Assembly: GCA_946554335.1 (NCBI GenBank)
Contig: CAMNSA010000002.1
Coordinates: forward strand, 124,001-188,000
DNA: 64,000 nt
Origin: an uncultured Neglectibacter sp.
GTDB taxonomy: Bacteria > Bacillota > Clostridia > Oscillospirales > Acutalibacteraceae
Reading direction: 5' to 3'
Under the pieces are notes generated by a model that was not told the DNA's origin, searched no databases, and saw only the letters and a list, made by a program, of their open reading frames with translations. The position numbers were made by a program, and so were the translations under genes. Below are positions 33,963 through 48,669 of this stretch, one piece after another (the stretch's first letter is position 1; each line of letters starts with the position of its first letter).

Positions 33963-35468
33963 ATGGTGCAACAGCAAAATGCAGGCCCACAGAATACGGG
34001 AGAAGATTTAAACGAAATTCTGCGTGTGCGCAGAGAGAAGCTTGCGGCGCTGCAGGAGGCGGGAGAGGACCCCTTCCGGCAGACGCGTTTCCTCTGGGAC
34101 GCTACCAGCGGGCAGATCAAGGAGAATTTTGACGAGATGGAAGGGAAACCCGTCAAGGTGGCCGGACGGCTGATGTCCAAGCGGGGAATGGGAAAGGTGT
34201 CCTTCTGCGACTTGCAGGATCGGGACGGCAAGATCCAGCTTTACGCCCGGCAGGACGAGATGGACGAGGCGGTCTATAAGAAGTTCAAGAAATATGACAT
34301 CGGCGATATCGTGGGAGTCGAGGGAGAGGTTTTCCGCACCCAGCGCGGGGAAATGAGCGTTCGGGCAAAGAATATCACCCTGCTCTCCAAGTCCCTTCTG
34401 CCGCTGCCGGAGAAGTTCCACGGCCTTCAGAACAAGGACCTGCGCTACCGTCAGAGATATGTGGACCTCATCGTCAACCCGGAGGTAAAGCGGAACTTTG
34501 TCCTGCGCGCTCAGTTTATCAAGCATGTGCGGGATTTTCTGGATGATCGGGGCTTTATCGAGGTGGAAACCCCGGTGCTCAACACCATTCAGGGCGGCGC
34601 TACCGCCCGACCTTTTGTGACCCACCACAACACCCTGGACATCGACATGTATCTGCGTATCGCAACTGAGCTTCCTTTAAAGCGGCTCATTGTGGGTGGG
34701 ATGGATCGGGTCTATGACCTGGGCAGGATCTTCCGCAATGAGGGCATGGACCCGAAGCATAACCCGGAGTTTACCACGGTTGAGCTTTATCAGGCCTATG
34801 CCGATTTCAACGACATGATGGATCTCTTTGAGGATCTGCTCTCTTCGGCGGCCCAGAAGCTGCTGGGGACCTATGAGCTGGAGTGGCTCGGGAAGCAGGT
34901 GAACCTTACCCCCGGCTGGCGCCGCATGCCCATGCACGAGGCGGTGAGGGAATACTGCGGGATCGATTTCATGGCGATCACCTCCGACGAGGAGGCTGTG
35001 AAGGCTGCGAAGGAGATCGGCGTGGAGCTTCCGGAGAACAAGGAGCCCACCTGGGGCAACGCCCTGTATGAGTGCTTTGACCAGCGGGTGGAGGAAAAGC
35101 TTGTTGATCCCACCTTCATCACCATGCATCCGGTGGATGTGTCGCCGCTTGCCAAGCGCTCTCCCAAGGACTCCAGGCTCACAGAGCGGTTCGAGCTGTT
35201 TATCTGCGGCTCCGAGATGGGCAACGCCTTTTCTGAGCTCAACGACCCCATCGACCAGCGCAGCCGCTTCCAGAAAGAGGTGGAGGCCAGAGCCAAGGGC
35301 GACGACGAGGCCGGCATGATGGACGAGGATTTCCTCACGGCTTTGGAATACGGGATGCCTCCCACGGGAGGTCTCGGAATTGGGATCGATAGATGCGTGA
35401 TGCTTCTCACCGGCGCAGATTCCATCCGGGACGTGATCGCCTTCCCCACGATGAAACCTCTCGATTAA
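33963..35468 (+). CDS. lysS: Lysyl-tRNA synthetase (class II)
   Basis: NEILRVRREKLAALQEAGEDPF; RMSKRGMGKVSFCDLQDRDGKIQLY; GGLGIGIDRCVMLLTGADSIRDVIAFPTMKP. Confidence 0.97.
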   Translation: MVQQQNAGPQNTGEDLNEILRVRREKLAALQEAGEDPFRQTRFLWDATSGQIKENFDEMEGKPVKVAGRLMSKRGMGKVSFCDLQDRDGKIQLYARQDEMDEAVYKKFKKYDIGDIVGVEGEVFRTQRGEMSVRAKNITLLSKSLLPLPEKFHGLQNKDLRYRQRYVDLIVNPEVKRNFVLRAQFIKHVRDFLDDRGFIEVETPVLNTIQGGATARPFVTHHNTLDIDMYLRIATELPLKRLIVGGMDRVYDLGRIFRNEGMDPKHNPEFTTVELYQAYADFNDMMDLFEDLLSSAAQKLLGTYELEWLGKQVNLTPGWRRMPMHEAVREYCGIDFMAITSDEEAVKAAKEIGVELPENKEPTWGNALYECFDQRVEEKLVDPTFITMHPVDVSPLAKRSPKDSRLTERFELFICGSEMGNAFSELNDPIDQRSRFQKEVEARAKGDDEAGMMDEDFLTALEYGMPPTGGLGIGIDRCVMLLTGADSIRDVIAFPTMKPLD

Positions 35469-35521
35469 CAGCCCCCTTGCGGCACAATGGTTTTCGGGGA
35501 TTTCAGGGGATAAATCGGGAG

Positions 35522-35548
35522 ATTTTACACCTAATTTACACCTTTTCA
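35522..35548. repeat. Candidate att direct repeat, left end: ATTTTACACCTAATTTACACCTTTTCA
   Basis: Identical to the right-end repeat apart from one inserted G. Confidence 0.75.
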
Positions 35549-35731
35549 ATGAACAAGAGCCCACAATAACAAACTCTGAAAAGACACTTTTGCAAGTAGC
35601 AAGGGTGTTTTTTCTTACGCATTTTTAGCACCTCACAATATGTGAGGCATACATAAGCATTTGTGTTTATAAGAATGCTGCCGACAGACAACAGTGTTAT
35701 AAGCATGAAATCTTAGAATAAACAAAAGGAG

Positions 35732-35765
35732 GAGATGACGAATATAGTCATCTCTGCCTTATTTT
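35732..35765 (+). terminator. GAGATGAC-GAATATA-GTCATCTC hairpin with T tract
   Basis: 8-bp perfect inverted repeat followed by TGCCTTATTTTTTT. Confidence 0.7.
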
Positions 35766-35870
35766 TTTGCGCAAAAAAATGAGAGCAAACCAACAAAGGC
35801 TCACTCTCATATAATATTAAGATATTTATACACCCACATATATCCACTTTAGTGGTGATGTCAAATGATT

Positions 35871-36293
35871 TTATAGAAAATCATTTTCCTCCATTCGTTC
35901 CAGGTAGACTCGCTCAATATTTTCAATAGCGAGAACACATCGGTTGTTACGATAGTCCTTATGTTCCCGGCAGTAATCCTCATAAAAATCTATAACGGCG
36001 AGAATTTCAATAAAGTCCTCTCGCGTATGCTTCAGTCCACGCATCAGCTCAAGATTAAAGGATAGGATTTGCGCTCTGTGGGCATCTGCATTGCGTTCAT
36101 CATCAACCTTTATGTGACCGTCAAGCCGTTTCTCCACTGTGTTTAGTTTCTCAATTACATCTCCATTGAGACCCCTGCCGATTGCCCGCATGATAGCAGA
36201 CCACGGGTCTACCTTGATTGGAGCAATTTGGACGAGCGTTAGCAAGAGTAATATACCACCACCACTCCAACTTAAAATCTCTGCGATACTCAT
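35871..36293 (-). CDS. Phage holin-region protein with N-terminal TM and coiled coil
   Basis: MSIAEILSWSGGGILLLLTLVQIAPIKVDPWSAIMRAIGRGLNGDVIEKLNTVEKRLDGHI; adjacent to holin-like gene. Confidence 0.6.
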   Translation of the reverse strand: MSIAEILSWSGGGILLLLTLVQIAPIKVDPWSAIMRAIGRGLNGDVIEKLNTVEKRLDGHIKVDDERNADAHRAQILSFNLELMRGLKHTREDFIEILAVIDFYEDYCREHKDYRNNRCVLAIENIERVYLERMEENDFL

Positions 36294-36311
36294 ACTGCAC
36301 CTCCTGAAAAG

Positions 36312-36674
36312 TTATTTGATATCCTTCTTTTCTTCAGCGGCAACAGTTTTGTTCGCATTCAAAACTTTGCTCATGTCACACATATTGTCGATGAGTTCGC
36401 CGATTTTCTCATAATCTTTTTCATCCAAGTCATAGTCGATTGTGTCAGCAGATGCTTTTAGCATTGCCATGACATATGTTTTCTTATCTGCTCCGACCTC
36501 CATCTTGCCTTCAACCTCTGACATGAGGTCAATAACAAGACCCACAACTTTCGGCCAATTCTTTTCTTTTACAGCCTTGCGGACATATTCTACCAGCTTG
36601 ATAGCCAGAGGAATAGCGGTTGCAAGACCTGCGAGGACAGAAACAATAAGTTGCAGATACTGTTCCATACCCAT
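36312..36674 (-). CDS. Phage holin-like protein
   Basis: N-terminal TM segment QYLQLIVSVLAGLATAIPLAIKLVEYVRKAVKEKNW; phage context. Confidence 0.6.
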   Translation of the reverse strand: MGMEQYLQLIVSVLAGLATAIPLAIKLVEYVRKAVKEKNWPKVVGLVIDLMSEVEGKMEVGADKKTYVMAMLKASADTIDYDLDEKDYEKIGELIDNMCDMSKVLNANKTVAAEEKKDIK

Positions 36675-36679
36675 TCCGG

Positions 36680-37078
36680 ATTGCCATCATCGTTTTCTGC
36701 TTCCGTGCTCCCAATGACTGTGTCCCCAAGTGTAGCTGTGACGGTAGACCCAGTAGGCGCACTGACAACAACCTGTGGAGTCATAAAACCGCCAAGCTGT
36801 GTTTTGACATAATTCACCAGATTTCCAAGAGTCATCCTGTTTCCTGTTTTATTCGATGTATCTCTGATAGCAATACAGTCAGCAGACACTGCATTTGAAT
36901 AAGATAGGGTAGAAGACCCGCTGATAAGGTTGTACAGCCGGTCATCCAAAATGTCTCCCTGTTCAATTACGGCAACATGGTCTACACCAAGTTTATTATA
37001 TAACTCGTCGTGACCAATCAGAGCATATGTGCCGTCGTTACCAGAAGAAACGCCACCCTTGATAAATGCCGCATTAAA
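36680..37078 (-). pseudogene. Truncated phage tail/structural gene fragment
   Basis: Minus-strand frame open from about 37078: FNAAFIKGGVSSGNDGTYALIGHDELYNKLGVDHVAVIEQGDILDDRLYNLISGSSTL...VVVSAPTGSTVTATLGDTVIGSTEAENDDGNPEW, then runs out of frame into the holin gene. Confidence 0.75.
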
Positions 37079-37079
37079 G

Positions 37080-37301
37080 TATATTACAAAAGATACCGAT
37101 GCAGTGGTTTCTTATAAGCTATATGAGCCGTTCAAAACAATGGGCAGCGTAAGTGCAGAAGCAAAGTTGCTTGAATTTGATAAGCCAGAGTGGTTTGCGC
37201 GAGTTGCAGAGTTTTCAAGTAATACAGAGGTATATCCGCTAACCAACGGAAAGGTAAGGCTTACATTTACCTTTCACGGCTTGACTGCTCCAATTGAGTG
37301 A
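37080..37301 (+). pseudogene. 5'-truncated phage early-region gene fragment
   Basis: YITKDTDAVVSYKLYEPFKTMGSVSAEAKLLEFDKPEWF...; predicted N-term MPSLPEETPPLINAALK of ORF 37029-37301 is antisense to the tail fragment. Confidence 0.6.
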
Positions 37302-37675
37302 GGAGGTACGGTGTGGAAGAGAAATCTTGCAAAGACCTTGTAATGGAAGTTGTCGAAGAAGCATCCAAACGATTTGGCAGTTCATTCGTTGTTACAGAAG
37401 AATCTATAGGTAAGCTATCTGATATTTGTGATGCAGTAGATAATTTAGCAGACGATAATTTCTGCGACTATATTGATATCGATGTTGACGAGTACACAAA
37501 AAAACTGACGATTGGAATTACCTGTGATGATTTAGAAATGCACGGTGGAAGAACAAACGAGTTCTTTACCCTGATTAAGATGGTAGACTCATTTTGCTTC
37601 TCCACAACATCCGATGGTGCATTGAAGGTGGAATTCAACATTTTCTGGATATGGGAGGGAACTCGTGAATGCTAA
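37298..37675 (+). CDS. Hypothetical phage protein
   Basis: Acidic 125 aa ORF in a tightly packed early operon. Confidence 0.7.
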   Translation: MRRYGVEEKSCKDLVMEVVEEASKRFGSSFVVTEESIGKLSDICDAVDNLADDNFCDYIDIDVDEYTKKLTIGITCDDLEMHGGRTNEFFTLIKMVDSFCFSTTSDGALKVEFNIFWIWEGTREC

Positions 37676-37895
37676 CAGACGCGGGCGATTGAATGATGCG
37701 CTCAAAATGTTATCAAGCGCTGCTGTTATTGTAGAAAATGTATGTGACAAAGAGGAAGATTGCTTGGACAATTATCCGGAAAATCTGCAAAGTACAGAGC
37801 GATTTGGGAAAATTGAAGATGCCGTTGATAACCTTAATGAGGCACTTGAAAAAATAGACGATGCAAAAGGATATATTGAATCAGCGATAAGATGA
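37665..37895 (+). CDS. Small helical phage protein
   Basis: MLSSAAVIVENVCDKEEDCLDNYPENLQSTERFGKIEDAVDNLNEALEKIDDAKGYIESA, a recurrent phage early-region style protein. Confidence 0.75.
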   Translation: MNANRRGRLNDALKMLSSAAVIVENVCDKEEDCLDNYPENLQSTERFGKIEDAVDNLNEALEKIDDAKGYIESAIR

Positions 37896-37906
37896 GGTGT
37901 TAGGTA

Positions 37907-38482
37907 ATGTGGTCTGTGTTGGTTGCCGTATTAGGAAGCGTATATTTGGCTGGAAAGATGTCAGCAGAAAAAGGCGCTTCACAAGAGGCGGCTTCAAAAC
38001 GTGAAGAGTGGAATCGTGCACTCAACGAGTGGTGTGCGAAAATTACAGATGAAGACCTTGAAAATAGGCTTGAACTGTATATACGCGACAATCCGTTTGA
38101 GGCGTCTCAAAAAGCTAAGTATTTGTGCAACTGCATACCAAAAGACCAAGACAATATAACGACATATCTTAGAATCCTTTTGGCAGAACATGGCAAAATT
38201 AAAAAAACAGATGCAATCTTTGGGATAGATACTCCGTTATATACTCCAAAGCCGGCTGGTGCAGCAGAACAAAAGTATAAAGAATTTTTTGAGTTTGTTG
38301 CATGGTTAAATAGTAGTCTCAATGAACATGGGGCAGATACTGGTCAAGTTTTCTTTATTCCATCATATCCAAAGCCAGAATCAAAGAAATATTACGATAT
38401 GCCAGAGGCTGGAGAATTATTAGAATGTGGAACATATGTATGGGCTCCTCAGAGAATTGCGGTATATCTTGATAAAAAGTAA
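37907..38482 (+). CDS. Hypothetical phage protein with N-terminal hydrophobic segment
   Basis: 191 aa ORF starting MWSVLVAVLGSVYLAGKMSAEKGA. Confidence 0.65.
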   Translation: MWSVLVAVLGSVYLAGKMSAEKGASQEAASKREEWNRALNEWCAKITDEDLENRLELYIRDNPFEASQKAKYLCNCIPKDQDNITTYLRILLAEHGKIKKTDAIFGIDTPLYTPKPAGAAEQKYKEFFEFVAWLNSSLNEHGADTGQVFFIPSYPKPESKKYYDMPEAGELLECGTYVWAPQRIAVYLDKK

Positions 38483-38513
38483 AGCGGGGTGATTTAACCC
38501 CGCTACTTTAATC
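38478..38513. terminator. Convergent bidirectional terminator AAAGTAAAGCGGGGTGATTTAACCCCGCTACTTT
   Basis: Inverted repeat between converging + and - genes. Confidence 0.75.
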
Positions 38514-39308
38514 TTCAAAAAGATAATCTGGCAAATTAACTCTACAATTCATAATAACCTTGCCACACGACCTAACATCGCTTCCGCTATCTGGCGACAC
38601 GAACACATTCGTGTGTTTTAACTTAGGATTTGCGGATACAAGAATAAGATTACCGTTTTCATCGAGATAATACATCTTACAGTACATGGCTCCATCAACA
38701 CAAAAAATACCGACATCGCCAATACGCAACTCTGCGTCTTTGTCTACATAGACCATGTCTCCATCGTGTATGTATGGATACATACTGTTTCCTTGAATGT
38801 TGACGGCATAATCAGCTTGAGCCGGTACATCGTCATTAACAAGCATCATTTCAAAATCTGTTCCATCCAGTGGCATTGACGAACCGGCAGCGGACGGAGT
38901 GGTATAATGCGGTATATACCTGTCCTTGTGTTTTGGCTTTTGGACATCGGTGATGCTTACGATTCGTTCCGCACTTGTTTTTTCGACTCGCTCTCGCTCA
39001 ATGGCGCAGACTGTTCTAACCGTTTTCTGACCAAATGCGTCAAGTGATTTGTAGTTTTCAAGCAGTGTCGCTTCAGATTTAGAGCTTATAAAACTACGCT
39101 TTGGTAAATCATTCTCAAGCCCAAGAATAGTATCTGCTGATACCATCAGAGTTTTGCTGAGAGAGATTATGGCATCCATGGATGGCTTTTTCTCCCCGCG
39201 TTCCCAATACTGGATGGTAACTGTAGATACACCAATAGCCTCACTTAATTCTTTTTGCGTAAGACCACATGCAAGTCGTAAGGCTTTTAATCTTTGTGCA
39301 AACTTCAT
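38508..39308 (-). CDS. CI-like phage repressor (XRE HTH + S24 peptidase)
   Basis: LRLACGLTQKELSEAIGVSTVTIQYWERGEKKPS; NIQGNSMYPYIHDGDMVYVDKDAELRIGDVGIFCVDGAMYCKMYYL. Confidence 0.95.
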   Translation of the reverse strand: MKFAQRLKALRLACGLTQKELSEAIGVSTVTIQYWERGEKKPSMDAIISLSKTLMVSADTILGLENDLPKRSFISSKSEATLLENYKSLDAFGQKTVRTVCAIERERVEKTSAERIVSITDVQKPKHKDRYIPHYTTPSAAGSSMPLDGTDFEMMLVNDDVPAQADYAVNIQGNSMYPYIHDGDMVYVDKDAELRIGDVGIFCVDGAMYCKMYYLDENGNLILVSANPKLKHTNVFVSPDSGSDVRSCGKVIMNCRVNLPDYLFED

Positions 39309-39346
39309 GGTTTACCTCCGAAAATTTATCTCTCGCTGCTGTTGAC

Positions 39347-39368
39347 ATGGTAGCTGTTTTATGGTAGC
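39347..39368. promoter_or_regulatory. Candidate repressor operator: direct repeat ATGGTAGC ... ATGGTAGC (14-bp period)
   Basis: 39347-39354 and 39361-39368, upstream of the repressor start; flanked by GCTGTT...AACAGC. Confidence 0.4.
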
Positions 39369-39398
39369 ATTAACAGCACAACCTTGGTTTGTGAGAAC

Positions 39399-39427
39399 AT
39401 CATAGCACAAACTACATTTTGTGTCAA
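39399..39427 (-). promoter_or_regulatory. Sigma-A promoter for repressor: TTGACA-17-TATGAT
   Basis: Minus-strand TTGACACAAAATGTAGTTTGTGCTATGAT. Confidence 0.75.
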
Positions 39428-39587
39428 TATCTAAAAAAGGTGCACTGTCCCAGACAACAAACGAAGAGAACAGTGCACCCACAGCCGGTAAAATACAGGC
39501 CGGAGTTAATAGCGACACCACTCGCCAGTAACTCACCTGTAGTATACCACGGCACAAAAAATAAATCAATGGAGGTTTTACTACAGG

Positions 39588-39911
39588 ATGAAAAACAAAA
39601 TGTCGGTCAGAGAACTGAAAGCTTACTGTACCGACCATGCAGTTAACGAGGTTCTTTTCAGTACAGAAAACCAAAGATGGTATCAAACTTCTGACCCTTG
39701 TAAGGTACAAATGCACTTCAAAATTATGTTGATTAGCGAAACTCCGAATTTAGTTTATTTGAAATCTGATGTAGGCTCAATCTGCTTTGACAGGGTTAGA
39801 TTTGTTGAAGTTGATACTGATATTACAGTGCTTGGCACAGTTCTGTATTTATATTGTGGTGGCAAAAGTGCTGCAAGCCCAGAGATTACATACACCCTTA
39901 TTATCAGATAA
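39588..39911 (+). CDS. Hypothetical phage protein
   Basis: 107 aa ORF in early region. Confidence 0.6.
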   Translation: MKNKMSVRELKAYCTDHAVNEVLFSTENQRWYQTSDPCKVQMHFKIMLISETPNLVYLKSDVGSICFDRVRFVEVDTDITVLGTVLYLYCGGKSAASPEITYTLIIR

Positions 39912-39938
39912 TTTTTTCATTTCGGCTATTTAATTAAC

Positions 39939-39967
39939 TTGACATGGAGAAAACCATATGCTATACT
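39939..39967 (+). promoter_or_regulatory. Sigma-A promoter TTGACA-17-TATACT upstream of mazF-like gene
   Basis: TTGACA 39939-39944, TATACT 39962-39967. Confidence 0.75.
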
Positions 39968-40005
39968 CCGAGCATCAACATAATTATTTTGAAGGAGTAA
40001 GTAGA

Positions 40006-40440
40006 TTGAGTTTTCGTAAGAGCGGACACACACCTCAAATCGGAGAGGTATACATGATGAAGTTTACTGGCAGCGGTAACGAGCAGAGTGGTTGGCGTCC
40101 AGGGCTTGTGTTCCAGAATAATGTTGGTAATTCGTATAGCCCAAATATTATCGCTATCCCGCTAACTACGTCTATTAAAAAAGCTAACCAGCCAACGCAT
40201 GTTGTTGTATATGCAAACGACAGTGGTCTCTTGAAGGATAGCATGGTTTTGTGTGAGAATCCAGAGCGTATGTCCAAAGCAAATATCGGCAAGTATATCA
40301 CGACGCTGTCCGATAAGTATATGAAGCAAATCGCCGAAGCGAACATACTCGCCTCCAGCGCAATCGCGTATCTGGATATGAGCGCGCTCCAGGTGATATG
40401 GGAAAAGGCTATTGCCTTAAACGCCGTCGTACCGGCGTAA
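40006..40440 (+). CDS. MazF/PemK-like toxin-family protein
   Basis: IGEVYMMKFTGSGNEQSGWRPGLVFQNNVGNSYSPNIIAIPLTTSIKKANQPTHVVV; RBS GAAGGAG before TTG at 40006 (the 39958 ATG lies inside the promoter). Confidence 0.88.
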   Translation: MSFRKSGHTPQIGEVYMMKFTGSGNEQSGWRPGLVFQNNVGNSYSPNIIAIPLTTSIKKANQPTHVVVYANDSGLLKDSMVLCENPERMSKANIGKYITTLSDKYMKQIAEANILASSAIAYLDMSALQVIWEKAIALNAVVPA

Positions 40441-40464
40441 CTACATACTATATGGAGGTGCGCT

Positions 40465-41424
40465 ATGTACAACGAAGAGTTGAAGAAAAGGTTTATATCT
40501 GAGTATACGCAAAGTATGTATACTGCAAAGGTTGCCACTACAATCTTTTCTGCGTTAGAAGAGTATGAGAATGAATGGGGCAATGATTTATGCACCCAGA
40601 GTGCAGAAACGCTGCAGCCTGTGATTAACGAGGTAACAGGGCTGCGTTCGCGTAGCCAGAGTACGTCTTTGACGGTGTTGCGAGAATATGTGAAGTGGTG
40701 TATCACCATGAAAATACCGGGAGCATGTGATGGTATGCTCCACATAAAGGCAGTTGGGTTGGATAAGATAAAGAAGCAAATGGTTTCCAGCCCGCTTCAT
40801 CTACAAAAATATTTGAATGACATTTTTGAACCGGAAAACGAAGAAACTGTGGACGTTATATACAGGTGCTATTATTGGATGGCGTTTTCTGGAATTAAAG
40901 AAGACGATACACTGCTTGTAAAAGCGGCTGATATTGACTTGCAGAATATGCAAATCCACTATGCTGGCATTGATTACCCCATTTATAGGGAGGCAATCCC
41001 TGCTTTTCGAGCAGCTATAGAGTTAAAAAGCTTTTGCTATAAACACCCGAATTACACTAAGCTGATACGCAAAGAAAGGGTTCCTGGAGATACAATAATG
41101 CGAGGTATACGGGCTGTAACGAAGACCATGACAATCCGAGTCACATTATCTCAGCGCTCATCTGATGCTATTAAAGCTGGTAAGACAGACCTACATTTGA
41201 GTTTCTACAGAATATGGATGTCCGGTCTGTTTTATAGAACATATGAAAACGAGCGTGCCGGGTTACCAGTTAACTTTTCCGATGTGGCATCTGACTTTAT
41301 GTCTGGTAAAGAATACACTATAAACGGCGTGAACCAGAGAATAAAGGTTTCGCACAAACAGAATAGAATAGAAAAAAATTATATGGAAGATTACGAACGA
41401 TGGAAACTTGCGTTTTCAATTTGA
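40465..41424 (+). CDS. Tyrosine-recombinase-fold-like phage protein lacking obvious catalytic residues
   Basis: SAM-like N-terminal half; YWMAFSGIKEDDTLLVKAADIDLQNMQI resembles the Int box I region but with K for the catalytic R. Confidence 0.55.
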   Translation: MYNEELKKRFISEYTQSMYTAKVATTIFSALEEYENEWGNDLCTQSAETLQPVINEVTGLRSRSQSTSLTVLREYVKWCITMKIPGACDGMLHIKAVGLDKIKKQMVSSPLHLQKYLNDIFEPENEETVDVIYRCYYWMAFSGIKEDDTLLVKAADIDLQNMQIHYAGIDYPIYREAIPAFRAAIELKSFCYKHPNYTKLIRKERVPGDTIMRGIRAVTKTMTIRVTLSQRSSDAIKAGKTDLHLSFYRIWMSGLFYRTYENERAGLPVNFSDVASDFMSGKEYTINGVNQRIKVSHKQNRIEKNYMEDYERWKLAFSI

Positions 41425-41437
41425 CTTTGGTAACAGA

Positions 41438-41464
41438 GAGAACCCGACTAATCGGGTTTCTCTT
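41438..41464 (+). terminator. AGAGAACCCGA-CTAA-TCGGGTTTCTCTTTT
   Basis: Hairpin plus T tract. Confidence 0.75.
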
Positions 41465-41512
41465 TTACATATATCAACATAATTAAATAAAATACAGAAA
41501 GGAGAGTTGAAT

Positions 41513-41776
41513 ATGGCTTTCAAGAAAACACTTGACCTGCTGCAAGAAAAAGAAAAGCGTTTGGCTGAACTGACAAGTCAGTCAGAGAGTGCTGTCGAGA
41601 TGGTTCGTAAGACAATGGATAATCTTACATCTGTCAACGACAGTATCAAGCAAACGGTGGAAGAAATCGATACATATGTGCAGCGTTTAAGTGAGACAAG
41701 AGATTGCCTTAACACCACTCACGACAAGAACGAAAGAATTATGCAGAATTTTGCAAAGCTACTGTGTGTGGAGTAA
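41513..41776 (+). CDS. Small coiled-coil phage protein
   Basis: AFKKTLDLLQEKEKRLAELTSQSESAVEMVRKTMDNLTSVND; RBS GAAAGGAG. Confidence 0.7.
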   Translation: MAFKKTLDLLQEKEKRLAELTSQSESAVEMVRKTMDNLTSVNDSIKQTVEEIDTYVQRLSETRDCLNTTHDKNERIMQNFAKLLCVE

Positions 41777-41788
41777 GGAGGTTTTTGA

Positions 41789-42367
41789 TTGAGTGAGTTA
41801 AAGAATCGGTTCCTTTCTATATATAAGGAACTGGTTACACGAGATGGTGCAGATGCGTTTTTGACCTGGCTTGATGAATCGGATTTCTTTGTTGCTCCAG
41901 CATCAACGCGATTTCATGGTTGTCACGAAGAAGGTTTGCTTGAACATTCTTTGAATGTATATGACTGCTTAAAGAAAAATGTTGAGCGAGCTAATCTGCA
42001 AGACACCTATTCGCCTGAAACAATAGCCGTAGTATCTTTGCTTCACGATATCTGCAAAGTGAACTACTATAAAAAAGGCTTTAGGAATGTAAAAGACGAT
42101 GAGACTGGACAATGGTATAAGAAAGAGGTTTATGAGGTTGATGAGAAATTCCCATGTGGGGAACACGCAGATAAGTCAATCATCATCATTCAGAACTTCA
42201 TGCGTCTTGAGCCAGAAGAAATTTTAGCTATCAGAGCACACATGGGCGGTTGGGACACAGCGGTAAAGGGCGGGAACGCTTTTGTTGGAAAAATTTTCGA
42301 TAGAAGTAAACTTGCCGTACTCCTGCATCTTGCCGATATGGAAGCCACATATTTACTGGAGGGATGA
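41789..42367 (+). CDS. HD-domain hydrolase
   Basis: FHGCHEEGLLEHSLNVYDCL...VVSLLHDICKVNYY (H...HD). Confidence 0.85.
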   Translation: MSELKNRFLSIYKELVTRDGADAFLTWLDESDFFVAPASTRFHGCHEEGLLEHSLNVYDCLKKNVERANLQDTYSPETIAVVSLLHDICKVNYYKKGFRNVKDDETGQWYKKEVYEVDEKFPCGEHADKSIIIIQNFMRLEPEEILAIRAHMGGWDTAVKGGNAFVGKIFDRSKLAVLLHLADMEATYLLEG

Positions 42368-42368
42368 A

Positions 42369-42518
42369 ATGGCGGAAGAAATGAATATCTACCAGAAGCT
42401 TGCGAAAGTTCGCAAGCAGGTAGAGGTTATCCAGCGCAACAAGTCTGGGTACGGGTACAAATATGTCAGCGAGGACGAAATCCTCGCCAAAGTGTCTGGG
42501 TTCATAAAGAAGCAATAG
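42369..42518 (+). pseudogene. 3'-truncated ERF-family recombination (single-strand annealing) gene fragment
   Basis: MAEEMNIYQKLAKVRKQVEVIQRNKSGYGYKYVSEDEILAKVSGFIKKQ* matches the N-terminus of ERF proteins, then stops. Confidence 0.8.
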
Positions 42519-43261
42519 AAAAGCTGAAAAAATATAGCGGTTTTGACGGGACTGTGCCATCACATCGTAAATTAGCGGCGACAGAAGTTGCAAAAAGGTT
42601 TTCTCCACCCAAAAAGGCGCAAAAACAGTCCAAGGCAACCATATTACCAGATGATTATATGGAAAGATACGAAAAAAGAGATGACAAGCTCGCAGTTTGG
42701 GGGCAAGAAGGCATCTCCAGAGCATCTATGGACAAATTCCAGGTTTATTACGACAGTTTTTCAGACCGCTTGGTGTATCCGATACGAAATCCAGATGGAA
42801 AAATCGTCAACATCGGTGGTAGAACACTCGACCCAGCCTGGAAAGAGAAACAATTGAGAAAATATACCTACTTTTTCCCTTGGGGAGAGTTAAAAACATT
42901 ATATGGGCTTGCTGAAAACATTGATAGCATTAAAAAACAGCGTGAAATTATCCTGTTTGAAGGTTGTAAGTCTGTTTTGCTTGCAGATACATACGGGGTA
43001 CACAATACTGGAGCAATTTTAACTTCGCATTTGAACCCAAACCAGATGAAACTGCTTGTTGGGCTTGGTTGTAGGGTGGTTTTTGCACTTGACAAGGATG
43101 TTTCTATCCGAGAAGACCACAATATCAAGCGTTTGAAGCAGTTTGTAAATGTGGAATATATCTGGGATAAAGAAAATCTACTTGATGACAAAGATAGCCC
43201 AGTTGATAAAGGGAAAGAGGTATGGGAAAAGCTCTATGAGGGGAGGTTATCATGGCACTGA
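42503..43261 (+). pseudogene. 5'-truncated phage DnaG-type primase (toprim region retained)
   Basis: DKFQVYYDSFSDRLVYPIRNPDGKIVNIGGRTLD...IILFEGCKSVLLADTYG...VVFALDKDV; zinc-finger N-terminus absent. Confidence 0.8.
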
Positions 43262-44445
43262 GTGACCAATACACAATTTATCACTTGCATAGTGACCTAT
43301 CCAATGGCGTTACGAACATTGATTCAGTTACTAAATATGGAGAATACATAGCACGGGCAAAAGAATGCGGCATGAAAGCACTTGCTTTTTCAGAACACGG
43401 CTCTGTTTTTGAGTGGTGGCACAAGAAAAAGGAAATAGAAGCTGCTGGAATGAAGTACATCCACGCAGTAGAAGCATACCTTACAGTTGGTCTTGACGAA
43501 AAAATCAGGGACAACTATCACTGTGTGCTTATCGCCAAAAATTATGATGGGTTTCTCGAACTGAATAAGCTTATATCTGGAAGTTTTTGTAGAACAGACA
43601 ACCATTTTTACTATGTTCCGCGTATTACATTTGCAGAGCTGTTCAATACCTCTGACAATATCATAGTAACAACGGCTTGCATCGGAGGCGTTTTTGGTAA
43701 GGGCGAAGACAGAGCGCAGCAGATGTTCTTGGATTTCTTAGAGAAAAACAAACACAGGTGCTTTCTTGAGGTCGGTCACCACATTGATGACAAGCAGGTG
43801 GTATATAACCAAAAACTTTTTGAGCTGAGTAAGAAAACTGGAATACCGCTGATAGCCGGAACGGACACCCATGTGCTTAATGAAGAACATGAAAAGGGCA
43901 GAAGTATCCTGCAGGCGTCCAAAAACATCATGTTTGATGGCGAAGAACGGTGGGATTTGAAATTCAAAACCTATGACGAGCTGGTATCCGCATATCGAAA
44001 GCAAAAGTCTCTTCCGGAAGATGTGTTTATGCAGGCAATCGCCAACACAAATGCGATGGCAGATATGGTTGAGCCATTTAATCTCGACCAGGGAACCAAG
44101 TACCCACATATTTATGAAAACCCAGAGCAGACATTTTATCAGAAGGTTCAAGACGCTGTTGAACACCACCCATACGCACTAAAGAATCACAGCAAAGAAG
44201 AATTGCAAGATGTTATCAACGAAGAGTTTGAGGTGTATTTTGCATTTAATACTCGTATCAATGAGTGCAAGAACCACCACGGATTTATAGGGACAGACCA
44301 CTGCCCGGTGTGCGGCGAACCGGTGTTCGATACATACCAACGCATTGTCGGATATCTGGTTCCGTCCAGAGCCTACTCAAAGGATAGATTCCGCGAGTTT
44401 AATACCCGCCAATGGTATAGCTATGCGGAGGCGATGAGCGAATGA
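43252..44445 (+). CDS. In-frame chimera: DNA polymerase III alpha PHP domain fused to NrdD C-terminal zinc region
   Basis: N-term YTIYHLHSDLSNG...LAFSEHGSVFEWW...; C-term YFAFNTRINECKNHHGFIGTDHCPVCGEPVFDTYQRIVGYLVPSRAYSKDRFREFNTRQWY is anaerobic RNR C-terminus-like. Confidence 0.8.
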   Translation: MALSDQYTIYHLHSDLSNGVTNIDSVTKYGEYIARAKECGMKALAFSEHGSVFEWWHKKKEIEAAGMKYIHAVEAYLTVGLDEKIRDNYHCVLIAKNYDGFLELNKLISGSFCRTDNHFYYVPRITFAELFNTSDNIIVTTACIGGVFGKGEDRAQQMFLDFLEKNKHRCFLEVGHHIDDKQVVYNQKLFELSKKTGIPLIAGTDTHVLNEEHEKGRSILQASKNIMFDGEERWDLKFKTYDELVSAYRKQKSLPEDVFMQAIANTNAMADMVEPFNLDQGTKYPHIYENPEQTFYQKVQDAVEHHPYALKNHSKEELQDVINEEFEVYFAFNTRINECKNHHGFIGTDHCPVCGEPVFDTYQRIVGYLVPSRAYSKDRFREFNTRQWYSYAEAMSE

Positions 44446-44927
44446 GAATAAAGACAATCGTTGACGAGGACTTCACTAACTACAAAAAAGCGTCTATGTT
44501 TATTGGTACAATTTCATGCGGAGGCAAATGCTGTATTGAGGCTGGAATACCATTGTCAGTATGCCAGAATGATGGGTGGCGCTCATGCGCCCCCATCGCA
44601 ATGTCAGATAGACAAATTTGCATGAGATATATGGCAAATCCATTAACAAATGCAATTGTAATCGGTGGACTTGAACCGTTTGAACAAGCAAAGGAAGTGC
44701 GCAAGCTTGTCTGGATGTTACGAAATGTATTTATGTGCGATGACGATGTAGTTATCTATACTGGATACACACCAGACGAGATAGAAGAAGAGGTAAAACT
44801 TCTTTCTGAATTTAAGAACATCATTATTAAGTATGGCAGATATGTGCCAAACGCAAAGACACGATATGATGATGTGCTTGGTGTAAATCTGGTGTCCGAT
44901 AATCAATACGCTGTAAAAATTAGCTGA
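44442..44927 (+). CDS. NrdG-like anaerobic RNR activating protein / 4Fe-4S binding protein
   Basis: MFIGTISCGGKCCIEAGIPLSVCQNDGW...NPLTNAIVIGGLEPFEQAKEVRKLV. Confidence 0.85.
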   Translation: MRIKTIVDEDFTNYKKASMFIGTISCGGKCCIEAGIPLSVCQNDGWRSCAPIAMSDRQICMRYMANPLTNAIVIGGLEPFEQAKEVRKLVWMLRNVFMCDDDVVIYTGYTPDEIEEEVKLLSEFKNIIIKYGRYVPNAKTRYDDVLGVNLVSDNQYAVKIS

Positions 44928-44943
44928 GGAGATAAAGTATAAA

Positions 44944-45153
44944 ATGAGCCAAAACGGAGTCAAAATCGAATTAAATCCAGATAAAGAATATGTCGCAGAA
45001 ATCAGACGCAAGCTGAAAGACAACTCTGGATACTGCCCATGTTCACTAATTAAGAACAAAGACACGAAATGTATGTGCAAAGAGTTCGTGGAAATGGACG
45101 AAGGGATGTGCCACTGCGGGCTTTACATAAAAACTAAGGTTTATGGAGGATAA
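44944..45153 (+). CDS. Ferredoxin:thioredoxin reductase beta-like small protein
   Basis: GYCPCSLIKNKDTKCMCKEFVEMDEGMCHCGLYIK has the CPC/CxC/CHC pattern of FTR catalytic subunits. Confidence 0.75.
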   Translation: MSQNGVKIELNPDKEYVAEIRRKLKDNSGYCPCSLIKNKDTKCMCKEFVEMDEGMCHCGLYIKTKVYGG

Positions 45154-45155
45154 AG

Positions 45156-45704
45156 ATGCTGGTAGTAAATATGTTCGGTGCACCCGGCGCTGGTAAATCA
45201 ACCGGCGCCGCCTACATCTTCTCAAAGCTGAAAATGGCGGGAGTCAATGTTGAACTTGTAACTGAGTTTGCAAAGGATAAGGTTTGGGAGGGCAGCAAGG
45301 CTGTCTTTGATAACCAAGCATACATTTTTGGAAAGCAGTATTTTCGTATCAGTAGGTTGCAGGGAAAGGTTGATGTAATTATCACAGACTCTCCCATTTT
45401 ATTGTCGAGCTTCTATGCACACGACGATGTTCTTGGCAACGAGTTCGATAAGCTCTGCACAAAAGTGTTCAGGTCTTACAACTCAATGAATGTCTTTATT
45501 GACAGAGTAAAACCATATAACCCATCTGGACGATTCCAAAACGAGGCAGAAAGCGATGAATTGGCAAGAGTGATGCAGGATTTCCTTGAAGAGCACAACG
45601 TCACCTGTGTACACTACGATGGTTCTATCGAGGGCTATGATACTCTTGTTACCAACATCTTTGAAAGAATGAAGTACCCTGGCAGAAGCTGCGGGGTAAG
45701 GTAA
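45156..45704 (+). CDS. P-loop ATP-binding protein (kinase-like)
   Basis: Walker A GAPGAGKSTGAAYIFSKL; DVIITDSPILL. Confidence 0.8.
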   Translation: MLVVNMFGAPGAGKSTGAAYIFSKLKMAGVNVELVTEFAKDKVWEGSKAVFDNQAYIFGKQYFRISRLQGKVDVIITDSPILLSSFYAHDDVLGNEFDKLCTKVFRSYNSMNVFIDRVKPYNPSGRFQNEAESDELARVMQDFLEEHNVTCVHYDGSIEGYDTLVTNIFERMKYPGRSCGVR

Positions 45705-45719
45705 GAAAGGAGATTTACC

Positions 45720-45947
45720 ATGCTGAATACAGCCAAGAATACTACCGAGACCATCTACGAATATAACGAATATGGCAAAATGTCAAAGAAGACGGTTATC
45801 GAGACCTGCGATAATGATAACACCGAGATTGAAACAGGCATCGAGCTTGAGAGCACCTTTGGGATGTCTCCTCTTGAAATTTTCCTGACAGCGACCACTG
45901 GTGCCCTTGTTGGCAACTTGCTGTACCGTGTTATCCGCAAAGATTGA
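45720..45947 (+). CDS. Small phage protein with ETIYEYNEYGKMSKKTVIET motif
   Basis: Shares motif with the next ORF. Confidence 0.65.
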   Translation: MLNTAKNTTETIYEYNEYGKMSKKTVIETCDNDNTEIETGIELESTFGMSPLEIFLTATTGALVGNLLYRVIRKD

Positions 45948-45955
45948 GGTGTGCT

Positions 45956-46132
45956 ATGGTGAAGAGAACAATTAAAGAAACTGTCCGTGAGTATGATGAC
46001 AGTGGCAATCTTCTAAAAGAAACAATCACAGAAACAACGGAAGATGATGACACCATATACTTTCCTATGTATACAACAACGCCTGTACCAAATCCATGGT
46101 GGGCAAATCCGTCATGTACAATCACACAATGA
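45956..46132 (+). CDS. Small phage protein with ETVREYDDSGNLLKETITET motif
   Basis: Shares motif with the preceding ORF. Confidence 0.6.
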   Translation: MVKRTIKETVREYDDSGNLLKETITETTEDDDTIYFPMYTTTPVPNPWWANPSCTITQ

Positions 46133-46144
46133 GGAGATACAAAA

Positions 46145-46672
46145 ATGCAACGAGTGGGAAAATTTGAAAAAGTAAGTTTTGAGCAGTTCGGAGAAGCTAT
46201 GAAAGAGCTGTTTCATACAGAATATACGGACGAGCTTATCCAGAAGGCATACGACGAACTTGAACTACCTAAGAGAGCTACAAGTGGCAGTGCTGGATAC
46301 GATTTCAAGGCTCCGTTCACATTTACCCTTAAACCCGGTCAAACCATCAAAGTCCCAACAGGTATCCGTGTGAAGATTGATGAAGGGTGGTGGCTTGGGT
46401 GCCTGCCACGCAGCGGTCTTGGTTTCAAGTATCGCTTGCAGCTTAATAATACAATGGGCGTTATCGACAGCGACTACTATTTCTCAGATAACGAAGGTCA
46501 CATTTTTGCTAAAGTCACCAACGACAGTAACGAGGGAAAGGAAGTAACCGTAGAAGCTGGTAGTGGCTTCGTACAAGCTATTTTCATTCCTTATGGAATT
46601 ACATACTCCGATGAAGCTAACGGCATCAGAAACGGCGGTATGGGCTCCACAGACGGTGCAAAATCTAAATAA
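46145..46672 (+). CDS. dut: dUTP diphosphatase
   Basis: KRATSGSAGYDFKAP, LPRSGLGFKYRLQLNNTMGVIDSDYY, GSGFVQAIFIPYG. Confidence 0.93.
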   Translation: MQRVGKFEKVSFEQFGEAMKELFHTEYTDELIQKAYDELELPKRATSGSAGYDFKAPFTFTLKPGQTIKVPTGIRVKIDEGWWLGCLPRSGLGFKYRLQLNNTMGVIDSDYYFSDNEGHIFAKVTNDSNEGKEVTVEAGSGFVQAIFIPYGITYSDEANGIRNGGMGSTDGAKSK

Positions 46673-46703
46673 TAGGAAAAGCCTTTAATGCTAAGAGGCG
46701 AGG

Positions 46704-46733
46704 AAGGGCTGGCTTATTGCCAGCCCTTTTTTA
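46704..46733 (+). terminator. AAGGGCTGGC-TTATT-GCCAGCCCTTTTTT
   Basis: Perfect hairpin plus T tract. Confidence 0.9.
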
Positions 46734-46754
46734 TTTTCAAAAAGAGGTGGTGTT

Positions 46755-46961
46755 TTGAGTGCAACAATTCAAATCCCGTTCTGGGAACGGTATACATTAA
46801 GCATAGAAGAGGCCGCGGCATACTTCCGAATCGGTGAAAACAAGCTGCGAAAAATAGTCAACGAAAACGACAGCGCAGATTACATATTGTGGAACGGCAA
46901 TAGACCTCAAATCAAACGTAAGAAGTTCGAGGATTTTATTGACCGACACAATTTAATATAA
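46755..46961 (+). CDS. Excisionase-like HTH protein
   Basis: [27 protein letters not shown]...[15 protein letters not shown], directly upstream of integrase. Confidence 0.85.
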
Positions 46962-47036
46962 AAACCTTGAAAAAAGGAGCCCATTATACTATAATATACA
47001 AGTTATATTGTGGGCTCTTATCGGAAGGAGAAACCA

Positions 47037-48308
47037 ATGTCCGAAAAGAGACGCGATAGCAAAGGTAGAATTCTCCGTCAAGGAGAGCTACAAAGAAACG
47101 ATGGGAAGTATGAGTACCGATATATCGATGTAAAGGGTGAGCGCCGAAGCATTTATAGTTGGAAGTTAGTTGACACCGACAAAGTTCCGAATGGAAAAAG
47201 AAATTGTCGGGCACTAAGAGATATGGCAAAAGAGGTCAATAGAGATGTAGATGATGGCATCAATTCCTACGATGGCTATCGTACAACGCTTAACAGATTT
47301 TTTGATGACTACATTGAGACTAAGTACGAGCTGAAGCCAACAACGCGCACTAATTATAAATACATGTATGATAAATATGTGCGTAACGAGATAGGGAACA
47401 AGGACATAGCCGCTATTAAATATAGTGACATAAAGAAGTTCTATATCCATCTCATCAGGGATGTAGGATTTAAGCCAAACAGTATGGAGATAATCCAAAC
47501 CATCATACATCCGGTATTTTCTATAGCTGTTAGAGATGGTCTAATTCGCATTAACCCAACAGACGGCGCAATGGCAGAAATAAAAAGGAGCCACGATTGG
47601 GAGAAGCCAAAACGACACGCTCTGACAGAAGCAGAACAGTCTGCGTTTGTGAACTTCATAAAAAGCCACAGGACATACAAACATTGGCTACCAATATTTA
47701 CAGTCCTTCTTGGTACTGGATGCCGTGTTGGAGAAGTTGTGGGGCTGCGGTGGAGAGACTGTGATTTCAAAGAAAAGATTATTACCATAGACCATAGCCT
47801 TATTTATCGAGTACGAGAAGATGATGGCAAATGCGGATTCCATATCTCAACTCCAAAAACAAAAGCCGGTATACGAATCATTCCTATGTTTGAGGCAGTA
47901 AGACAAACGCTTATTGAAGAACGCATCAGGCAAATGCAAACAGGCTTCAATCAAACGGAGATAGATGGGTACAGCGGTTTCATATTTTCCAACCGATATG
48001 GTGATTGTATGTCGCCACATTGTATTAACAGAGCTATAGACAGAATTGTTCGGGATTATAATATTGAAGAAAGCGAGAAAGCAAAAAAGGAAAATCGCAA
48101 GCCAATACTGCTGCCGCATTTTTCAGTACACAATCTCAGGCACACATTCTGTACTCGGTTCTGCGAAAACGAAACAAACCTTAAGGTTATCCAGGAAATT
48201 ATGGGTCACGCAGACATCACGACCACAATGGATATCTACAACGAAGCTACTAAAGAAAAGAAAATTGAGAGTTTCGCAAACCTTGAGGGCAAGGTGAAAA
48301 TCAGCTAA
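47037..48308 (+). CDS. int: Tyrosine integrase (phage/Tn916-like)
   Basis: LLGTGCRVGEVVGLRWRDCDF; HNLRHTFCTRFCE; GHADITTTMDIYNE. Confidence 0.97.
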   Translation: MSEKRRDSKGRILRQGELQRNDGKYEYRYIDVKGERRSIYSWKLVDTDKVPNGKRNCRALRDMAKEVNRDVDDGINSYDGYRTTLNRFFDDYIETKYELKPTTRTNYKYMYDKYVRNEIGNKDIAAIKYSDIKKFYIHLIRDVGFKPNSMEIIQTIIHPVFSIAVRDGLIRINPTDGAMAEIKRSHDWEKPKRHALTEAEQSAFVNFIKSHRTYKHWLPIFTVLLGTGCRVGEVVGLRWRDCDFKEKIITIDHSLIYRVREDDGKCGFHISTPKTKAGIRIIPMFEAVRQTLIEERIRQMQTGFNQTEIDGYSGFIFSNRYGDCMSPHCINRAIDRIVRDYNIEESEKAKKENRKPILLPHFSVHNLRHTFCTRFCENETNLKVIQEIMGHADITTTMDIYNEATKEKKIESFANLEGKVKIS

Positions 48309-48310
48309 GT

Positions 48311-48338
48311 ATTTTACACCTGAATTTACACCTTTTCA
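48311..48338. repeat. Candidate att direct repeat, right end: ATTTTACACCTGAATTTACACCTTTTCA
   Basis: Near-identical to 35522-35548, 3 nt after the int stop codon. Confidence 0.75.
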
Positions 48339-48669
48339 GAGCAAAGTTATGAGAAGTTATAAGAATTATTGAGTGTGAAGGTGTTCAAGATGTGTTGTGA
48401 GACAAGGGTTTTAAGAACATTTAAGAACTTATATAGAATCCGTACTCACATCCCGACAATGAAGCCTGTGGACAATTAGCCCCAGCATTTACGCGGGTTA
48501 CGAAATGGGCAGTTCCACAGTGGAATTGCCCATTTTCAGTATACTGCCAGAAATGCCGTGAAAAAACAATCCTTTATAAGGCTTCCATTTTCTGGTATAC
48601 TTTACAAAGAGGTCTGCTGCGTGATGGTGCAGACAGTGGTATTATTTTGCAACAAAAAGGAGAATAGGT

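Follow-up and report, generated by a model that had tools for sequence, protein, structure and literature searches.

An open dnaE-nrdD reading frame in a defective prophage of an uncultured Neglectibacter species is most likely a deletion-born gene fusion

Introduction

How does an open reading frame come to begin as the alpha subunit of DNA polymerase III and to end as an anaerobic ribonucleotide reductase (RNR), and is its product likely to do anything in the cell? Such a frame lies at 43252..44445 (plus strand) of the window, by which we mean the whole 64,000-nucleotide stretch analysed here (assembly GCA_946554335.1 of an uncultured Neglectibacter sp., contig CAMNSA010000002.1, positions 124,001 to 188,000). 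A first-pass annotation, made from the letters alone, had described it as a chimera of a DnaE PHP region and an NrdD C-terminus, and had left the choice between a deletion scar and a newly formed protein.

Results

Two halves of one reading frame

The frame encodes 397 amino acids without interruption and is matched by two protein families, thus the open in-frame chimera is real at the level of the sequence. Its first 329 residues (43252..44238, plus strand) are the PHP region of a phage DnaE, as judged by the identity to relatives and by the Pfam PHP match in this half (E 6.5e-22). Residues 6-328 correspond to positions 43-374 of 1190 in the phage DNA polymerase profile phrog_405 (E 3e-70), and NCBIfam agrees, which bears out the earlier assignment of the N-terminal ~325 residues to the PHP region of polymerase III alpha. 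The residues invariant among the relatives (HLHSD, SEHG, HAVEAYL, GTDTHVL) are all present, and the identity to the best intact phage DnaEs (L004, L053, L021 and L022) is 75-78%. The polymerase catalytic domain with its acidic residues is absent, the phrog_405 match ending at position 374.

The second part (44239..44442, plus strand; residues 329-397) is the zinc-ribbon and glycyl-radical end of a phage NrdD, with the zinc ribbon C339xxxH..C351xxC354 and the loop RIVG(367)YLV. A failure of this part to match NrdD would have told against the first-pass annotation, but it did match: residues 326-391 align with positions 911-975 of 978 in the phage anaerobic RNR profile phrog_25611 (E 4e-14), and the tail aligns with residues 584-645 of 651 of Thermotoga maritima NrdD (PDB 4coi, E 6.5e-15). 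By this alignment C339, H343, C351 and C354 correspond to the Thermotoga zinc-ribbon motif CxxxHx6CxxC, and Gly367 to Gly621, the glycyl-radical site of the Thermotoga enzyme (PMC4493059). The tail is 94-96% identical to its best relatives (96% to L019 and L020). The NrdD catalytic barrel with its radical cysteine is absent, since phrog_25611 is matched over positions 911-975 only.

The same two-way split was obtained from Pfam and NCBIfam. When the halves were searched apart, as the first-pass annotation had advised, each found its own relatives, never both joined in one entry, and therefore the composite nature of the chimera is not a matter of chance resemblance. The sequence spanning the junction reads ...EEFEVYFAFNTR..., and the stop codon overlaps the start of the following nrdG-like gene as ATGA, just as had been noticed before. 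In an AlphaFold2 model built on an alignment of PHP relatives the PHP region folds well; residues 335-397 have pLDDT below 50, a value uninformative on the tail because that alignment held no tail rows. MAFFT alignments mixing PHP and tail rows came out misaligned and were left out of the results.

Breakpoint and parent genes

The fusion point was set by column-by-column comparison with 11 dnaE and 10 nrdD relatives. The window follows dnaE up to 44235 and nrdD from 44239, and the codon in between (breakpoint 2, 44236-44238, plus strand), a TAT encoding Tyr329, fits both parents, which makes a microhomology of 3 nt; the previous estimate of about 44239 was almost exact. A repeat scan of 41700-45200 detected no long repeat at the junctions, a weak result when taken alone because one repeat copy would remain after the event. 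Deletion between long repeats is nevertheless not supported, since the junctions have only 2-3 nt in common with both parents.

Gene order was read in eight relatives (L004, L005, L006, L021, L022, L053, L055 and L016), as far as each stretch extends. The order on one strand is MazF-like, MrpR-like, HD protein, erf, primase, dnaE, several genes, nrdD, nrdG and a small protein resembling ferredoxin-thioredoxin reductase (FTR), while dUTPase, excisionase and integrase come next in other related phages. In all of the eight but L005 primase-dnaE followed by nrdD-nrdG was seen on one strand. Intact dnaE encodes about 1070 aa (mostly 1050-1085 aa in these seven, 1049-1123 aa in most of the phage relatives) and nrdD about 640-655 aa, and the two break positions lie 6-9 kb apart in the intact relatives, in the same gene order and strand. 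Uncut PHP halves always run into a longer polymerase (at least 806 aa), and uncut NrdD tails have at least 400 aa of NrdD before them; every NrdD tail in the relatives either adjoins the catalytic part that belongs to it or is truncated where the contig or the fetched stretch ends. Furthermore, two genomes of the host genus, G008 and G011, have on one contig a relative of the polymerase gene with an unsplit nrdD 6-7 kb from it; these regions are probably less damaged prophages. Both the primase overlap upstream and the ATGA overlap with nrdG downstream are seen in intact relatives, so neither is evidence of design.

A family with this domain order would have made the chimera a normal protein, and such a family was looked for in genomes, phage records and virus contigs; none was found. 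Of the 29 genomes sampled from the genus, this one alone has the fusion; it is absent from 398 family genomes searched by the tail, from 396 order genomes and from 50,697 phage records, and exact or degenerate junction patterns did not recover it from virus contigs. Virus contigs, phage records and bacterial genomes contain relatives of each half, none with both joined. All relatives in which the relevant part is uncut are unfused, with no fused case in the genus, family and order samples, and on this comparison the unfused state would be the ancestral one. Since many relatives have intact dnaE and nrdD arranged in this order and orientation, and the join is of 3 nt, a deletion scar is strongly supported as the origin of the frame, and at least two further deletion junctions nearby agree with it.

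The prophage remnant

The chimera is located in a prophage remnant of 13 kb at the 3' end of lysS (35468..48479), with lysS-like sequences at both ends: the left edge is the lysS stop (35468), and a second lysS-3'-like sequence (ATCCCGACAATGAAGCCTGTGGACAATTAG) at about 48450-48479 forms the right edge. A matching attP-like sequence, TCCCCAC(A/C)ATGAAACC, adjoins the integrase in the related phages G424 and G425. A tRNA attachment site was considered and dismissed: there is none in the window, and the site is the lysS 3' end. The excisionase-like gene and the tyrosine integrase are intact (46755..48308, plus strand; phrog_16129 and phrog_1), and the integrases of G424, G425 and G426 are 68-71% identical to that of the remnant.

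At least three deletions separate the remnant from its parent phage, and one of them took the virion genes. At breakpoint 1 (42504..42505, plus strand) erf is joined out of frame to the middle of the primase gene with an overlap of about 2 nt. The truncated erf (42366..42518, plus strand), encoding a single-strand annealing protein, has about 46 native residues followed by a frameshift and a stop, and phrog_155 matches it over the domain start (E 6e-10). The primase gene (42506..43261, plus strand) lacks its first ~75 codons and covers phrog_47 profile positions 127-333, the primase ORF being 333 codons long in relatives. At breakpoint 3 (37066..37068) a minus-strand tail gene runs into a plus-strand phage gene of which the 3' part, the last 75 or so codons, is kept. 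The flanks of this junction are about 73 kb apart in the coordinates of G424, a related genome of 114 kb which is probably circular because its two ends are identical in sequence, and that 73-kb interval encodes terminase, portal and tape-measure proteins. Profile searches recognised no terminase, portal or tape measure in 35468-48479. With attachment-site boundaries and an integrase present and the virion genes lost, the element is a defective prophage of about 13 kb.

Two of the junctions fuse genes of the same strand, and one of the two is in frame (dnaE/nrdD), the other out of frame (erf/primase). This matches chance, and no selection is needed to account for the open frame.

It might be argued that the true prophage is intact and that phage segments lying far apart in it became linked in vitro or in silico, a suspicion encouraged by the single genome carrying the fusion. 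However, short-read assemblers join at long shared words, and the junctions have only 2-3 nt in common; three independent junctions occur in one collinear element with proper attachment sites at its ends; and the genome, 99.4% complete in 37 contigs, contains neither the PHP part nor the phage-type NrdD tail a second time. A library or assembly artefact is consequently very unlikely.

The integrase, excisionase, repressor, MazF-like, MrpR-like, nrdG and dUTPase genes of the remnant are intact, and this set of regulators together with the attachment sites would also suit a phage satellite of 13 kb that is spread by an intact relative and whose truncated genes are normal content. However, the genomes, virus contigs and phage records searched did not show these junctions a second time, no packaging or capsid-remodelling gene is recognisable, and we consider a satellite highly improbable.

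Neighbouring phage genes and the NrdD of the host

The nrdG-like activase gene next to the chimera (44442..44927, plus strand) is intact, encoding 161 aa with full-length matches in relatives and a Fer4_12 match (E 9e-7). Its family has a CX3C pair, and the third cysteine is shifted to a CQN motif several residues on, a pattern kept in 13 of 13 aligned members, the usual form being CX3CX2C. The next gene (44944-45153) encodes a protein of 69 aa with weak likeness (E 2.6e-4) to the catalytic chain of ferredoxin-thioredoxin reductase, and it is regularly found downstream of nrdDG in related phages; it may perhaps be the electron donor for the phage RNR. On the other side of the chimera, 39958-41424 encodes a MazF-like protein and then a protein with an MrpR N-terminal core-binding domain (phrog integrase-like), and this pair is conserved together in L004, L006, L009 and L053.

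The host's own NrdD is split on host contig G000:C3 into a large chain (L105:1684-4098, minus strand) of 804 aa, which ends after the zinc ribbon and has no glycyl-radical loop, and a small ORF (L105:1397-1630, minus strand), which has a ribosome-binding site to itself, carries the motif RRITGYLVG and encodes about 60-77 aa. The genus was sampled in 29 genomes, and in every one the PF13597 match on the host-type NrdD reaches only position 530/531, the last 30 or so positions being matched separately. Three of the 29 have an unsplit NrdD as well, beside a phage-type polymerase in two cases. Across the 17 loci that were read, the core EGRDFERIRRITGYLVGTxDRWNNAKRAEExDRVKH hardly varies, and the split appears to be present in several other genera of the family. 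Additionally, five genomes from other families of the class (L136 to L140) have an intact nrdD and, after it, a distinct ORF (roughly 80-115 aa) which repeats the glycyl-radical segment; these small ORFs resemble a spare part for NrdD, by analogy with YfiD for pyruvate formate-lyase. In the literature searched we found no paper on a split NrdD or on nrdD with a repeat ORF, which does not prove that none exists.

Discussion

With high confidence we regard the frame as a gene fusion born by deletion in a prophage, most likely an inert passenger. The starting point would have been a lysogen with a phage of roughly 100 kb. Illegitimate recombination may then have linked the Tyr329 codon of dnaE with its Tyr counterpart close to the 3' end of nrdD; dnaE would thereby have lost its polymerase part and nrdD its catalytic barrel, the genes between them would have gone too, and the frame would have been kept by chance. 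The start signal, the primase overlap and the ATGA overlap with nrdG would all be inherited from the parent genes, and two or more additional deletions, including that of the entire block of virion genes, would have left the defective prophage. The description as a newly formed protein is literally true, but a function for it is not supported.

A functional product has nevertheless to be weighed. The PHP part might work as a nuclease or phosphoesterase, and the tail, in the manner of YfiD/GrcA, might serve as a spare glycyl-radical part that NrdG activates: the chimera would be expressed, and its charged tail would supply the glycyl radical in trans to an anaerobic RNR in the split-NrdD host lineage. 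The break falls at the boundary of the zinc/glycyl-radical module, Gly367 is retained, the adjoining nrdG activase gene is intact, the PHP domain is predicted to fold, and the glycyl-radical site of the host NrdD is on a separate peptide, which makes use in trans plausible in this lineage. The host-type split and the spare segments thus render such a scheme conceivable, but they give no direct support for the chimera. On the other side, a second example was not found in the samples searched, the NrdD tails of relatives sit on their own catalytic part or are cut by a contig or stretch end, the sister junction (erf/primase) is out of frame, neither the polymerase domain nor the catalytic barrel of the RNR is left, the tail has pLDDT below 50 (in a model whose alignment lacked tail rows), and its sequence is phage-type, unlike the host tail. 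Taken together these points make a functional chimera highly improbable, and we give equally scant credence to its particular form, the supply of a radical in trans.

The chimera is thus likely non-functional; at best it would most likely amount to a PHP domain that might fold and cleave phosphoesters, its tail being left without a target. Against the passenger view it should be mentioned that the remaining genes of the remnant are without stop codons and that the PHP residues invariant in the relatives are kept, which means that either the decay is recent or part of the element is maintained.

The locus offers a base-resolved case in which a prophage deletion yields an open chimeric gene with two recognisable domains. 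Such ORFs are raw material discussed for gene birth by deletion, and annotators should be warned not to take them for new enzyme architectures. The genus-wide split of the class III ribonucleotide reductase is likely a more valuable lead than the chimera itself.

Compared with the known systems, residues 1-329 of the chimera are the PHP region of the phage DNA polymerase III alpha (phrog_405), up to 78% identical, with all polymerase domains absent. Relative to the class III RNR NrdD of Thermotoga maritima (PDB 4coi) the zinc ribbon and the glycyl-radical loop are kept, whereas the catalytic barrel, the active-site cysteines and the allosteric sites are not. YfiD/GrcA, a spare glycyl-radical part for pyruvate formate-lyase (PMC8683613), may be likened to it in that a glycyl-radical domain stands free, with a gene separate from that of the main enzyme; it is known for pyruvate formate-lyase, not for NrdD, and the chimera adds a PHP domain.

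Deletions of this kind are known from defective prophages, and cryptic or 'grounded' prophages have been reviewed (PMC6379469). Like them, the remnant has lost virion and replication genes by deletion and kept its repressor and integration genes; its distinction is the parent, a phage of roughly 114 kb which integrates at lysS and encodes a DnaE and an anaerobic RNR of its own. The fusion itself belongs to a described class, the 'deletion-born fusions' (Kaul et al. 2026, preprint, PMC12803068), one example being yjcO-lysU from the long-term E. coli experiment; the documented cases also lost catalytic domains and look inert. As in that class, a deletion has joined two distant gene fragments, which are apart, intact and in the same order and strand in relatives, into one frame open across the junction, the catalytic parts are gone and the product is probably inert. 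Unlike the other members, the chimera, known from one genome only, has two prophage genes as parents, and it combines a complete PHP region with a complete zinc/glycyl-radical tail.
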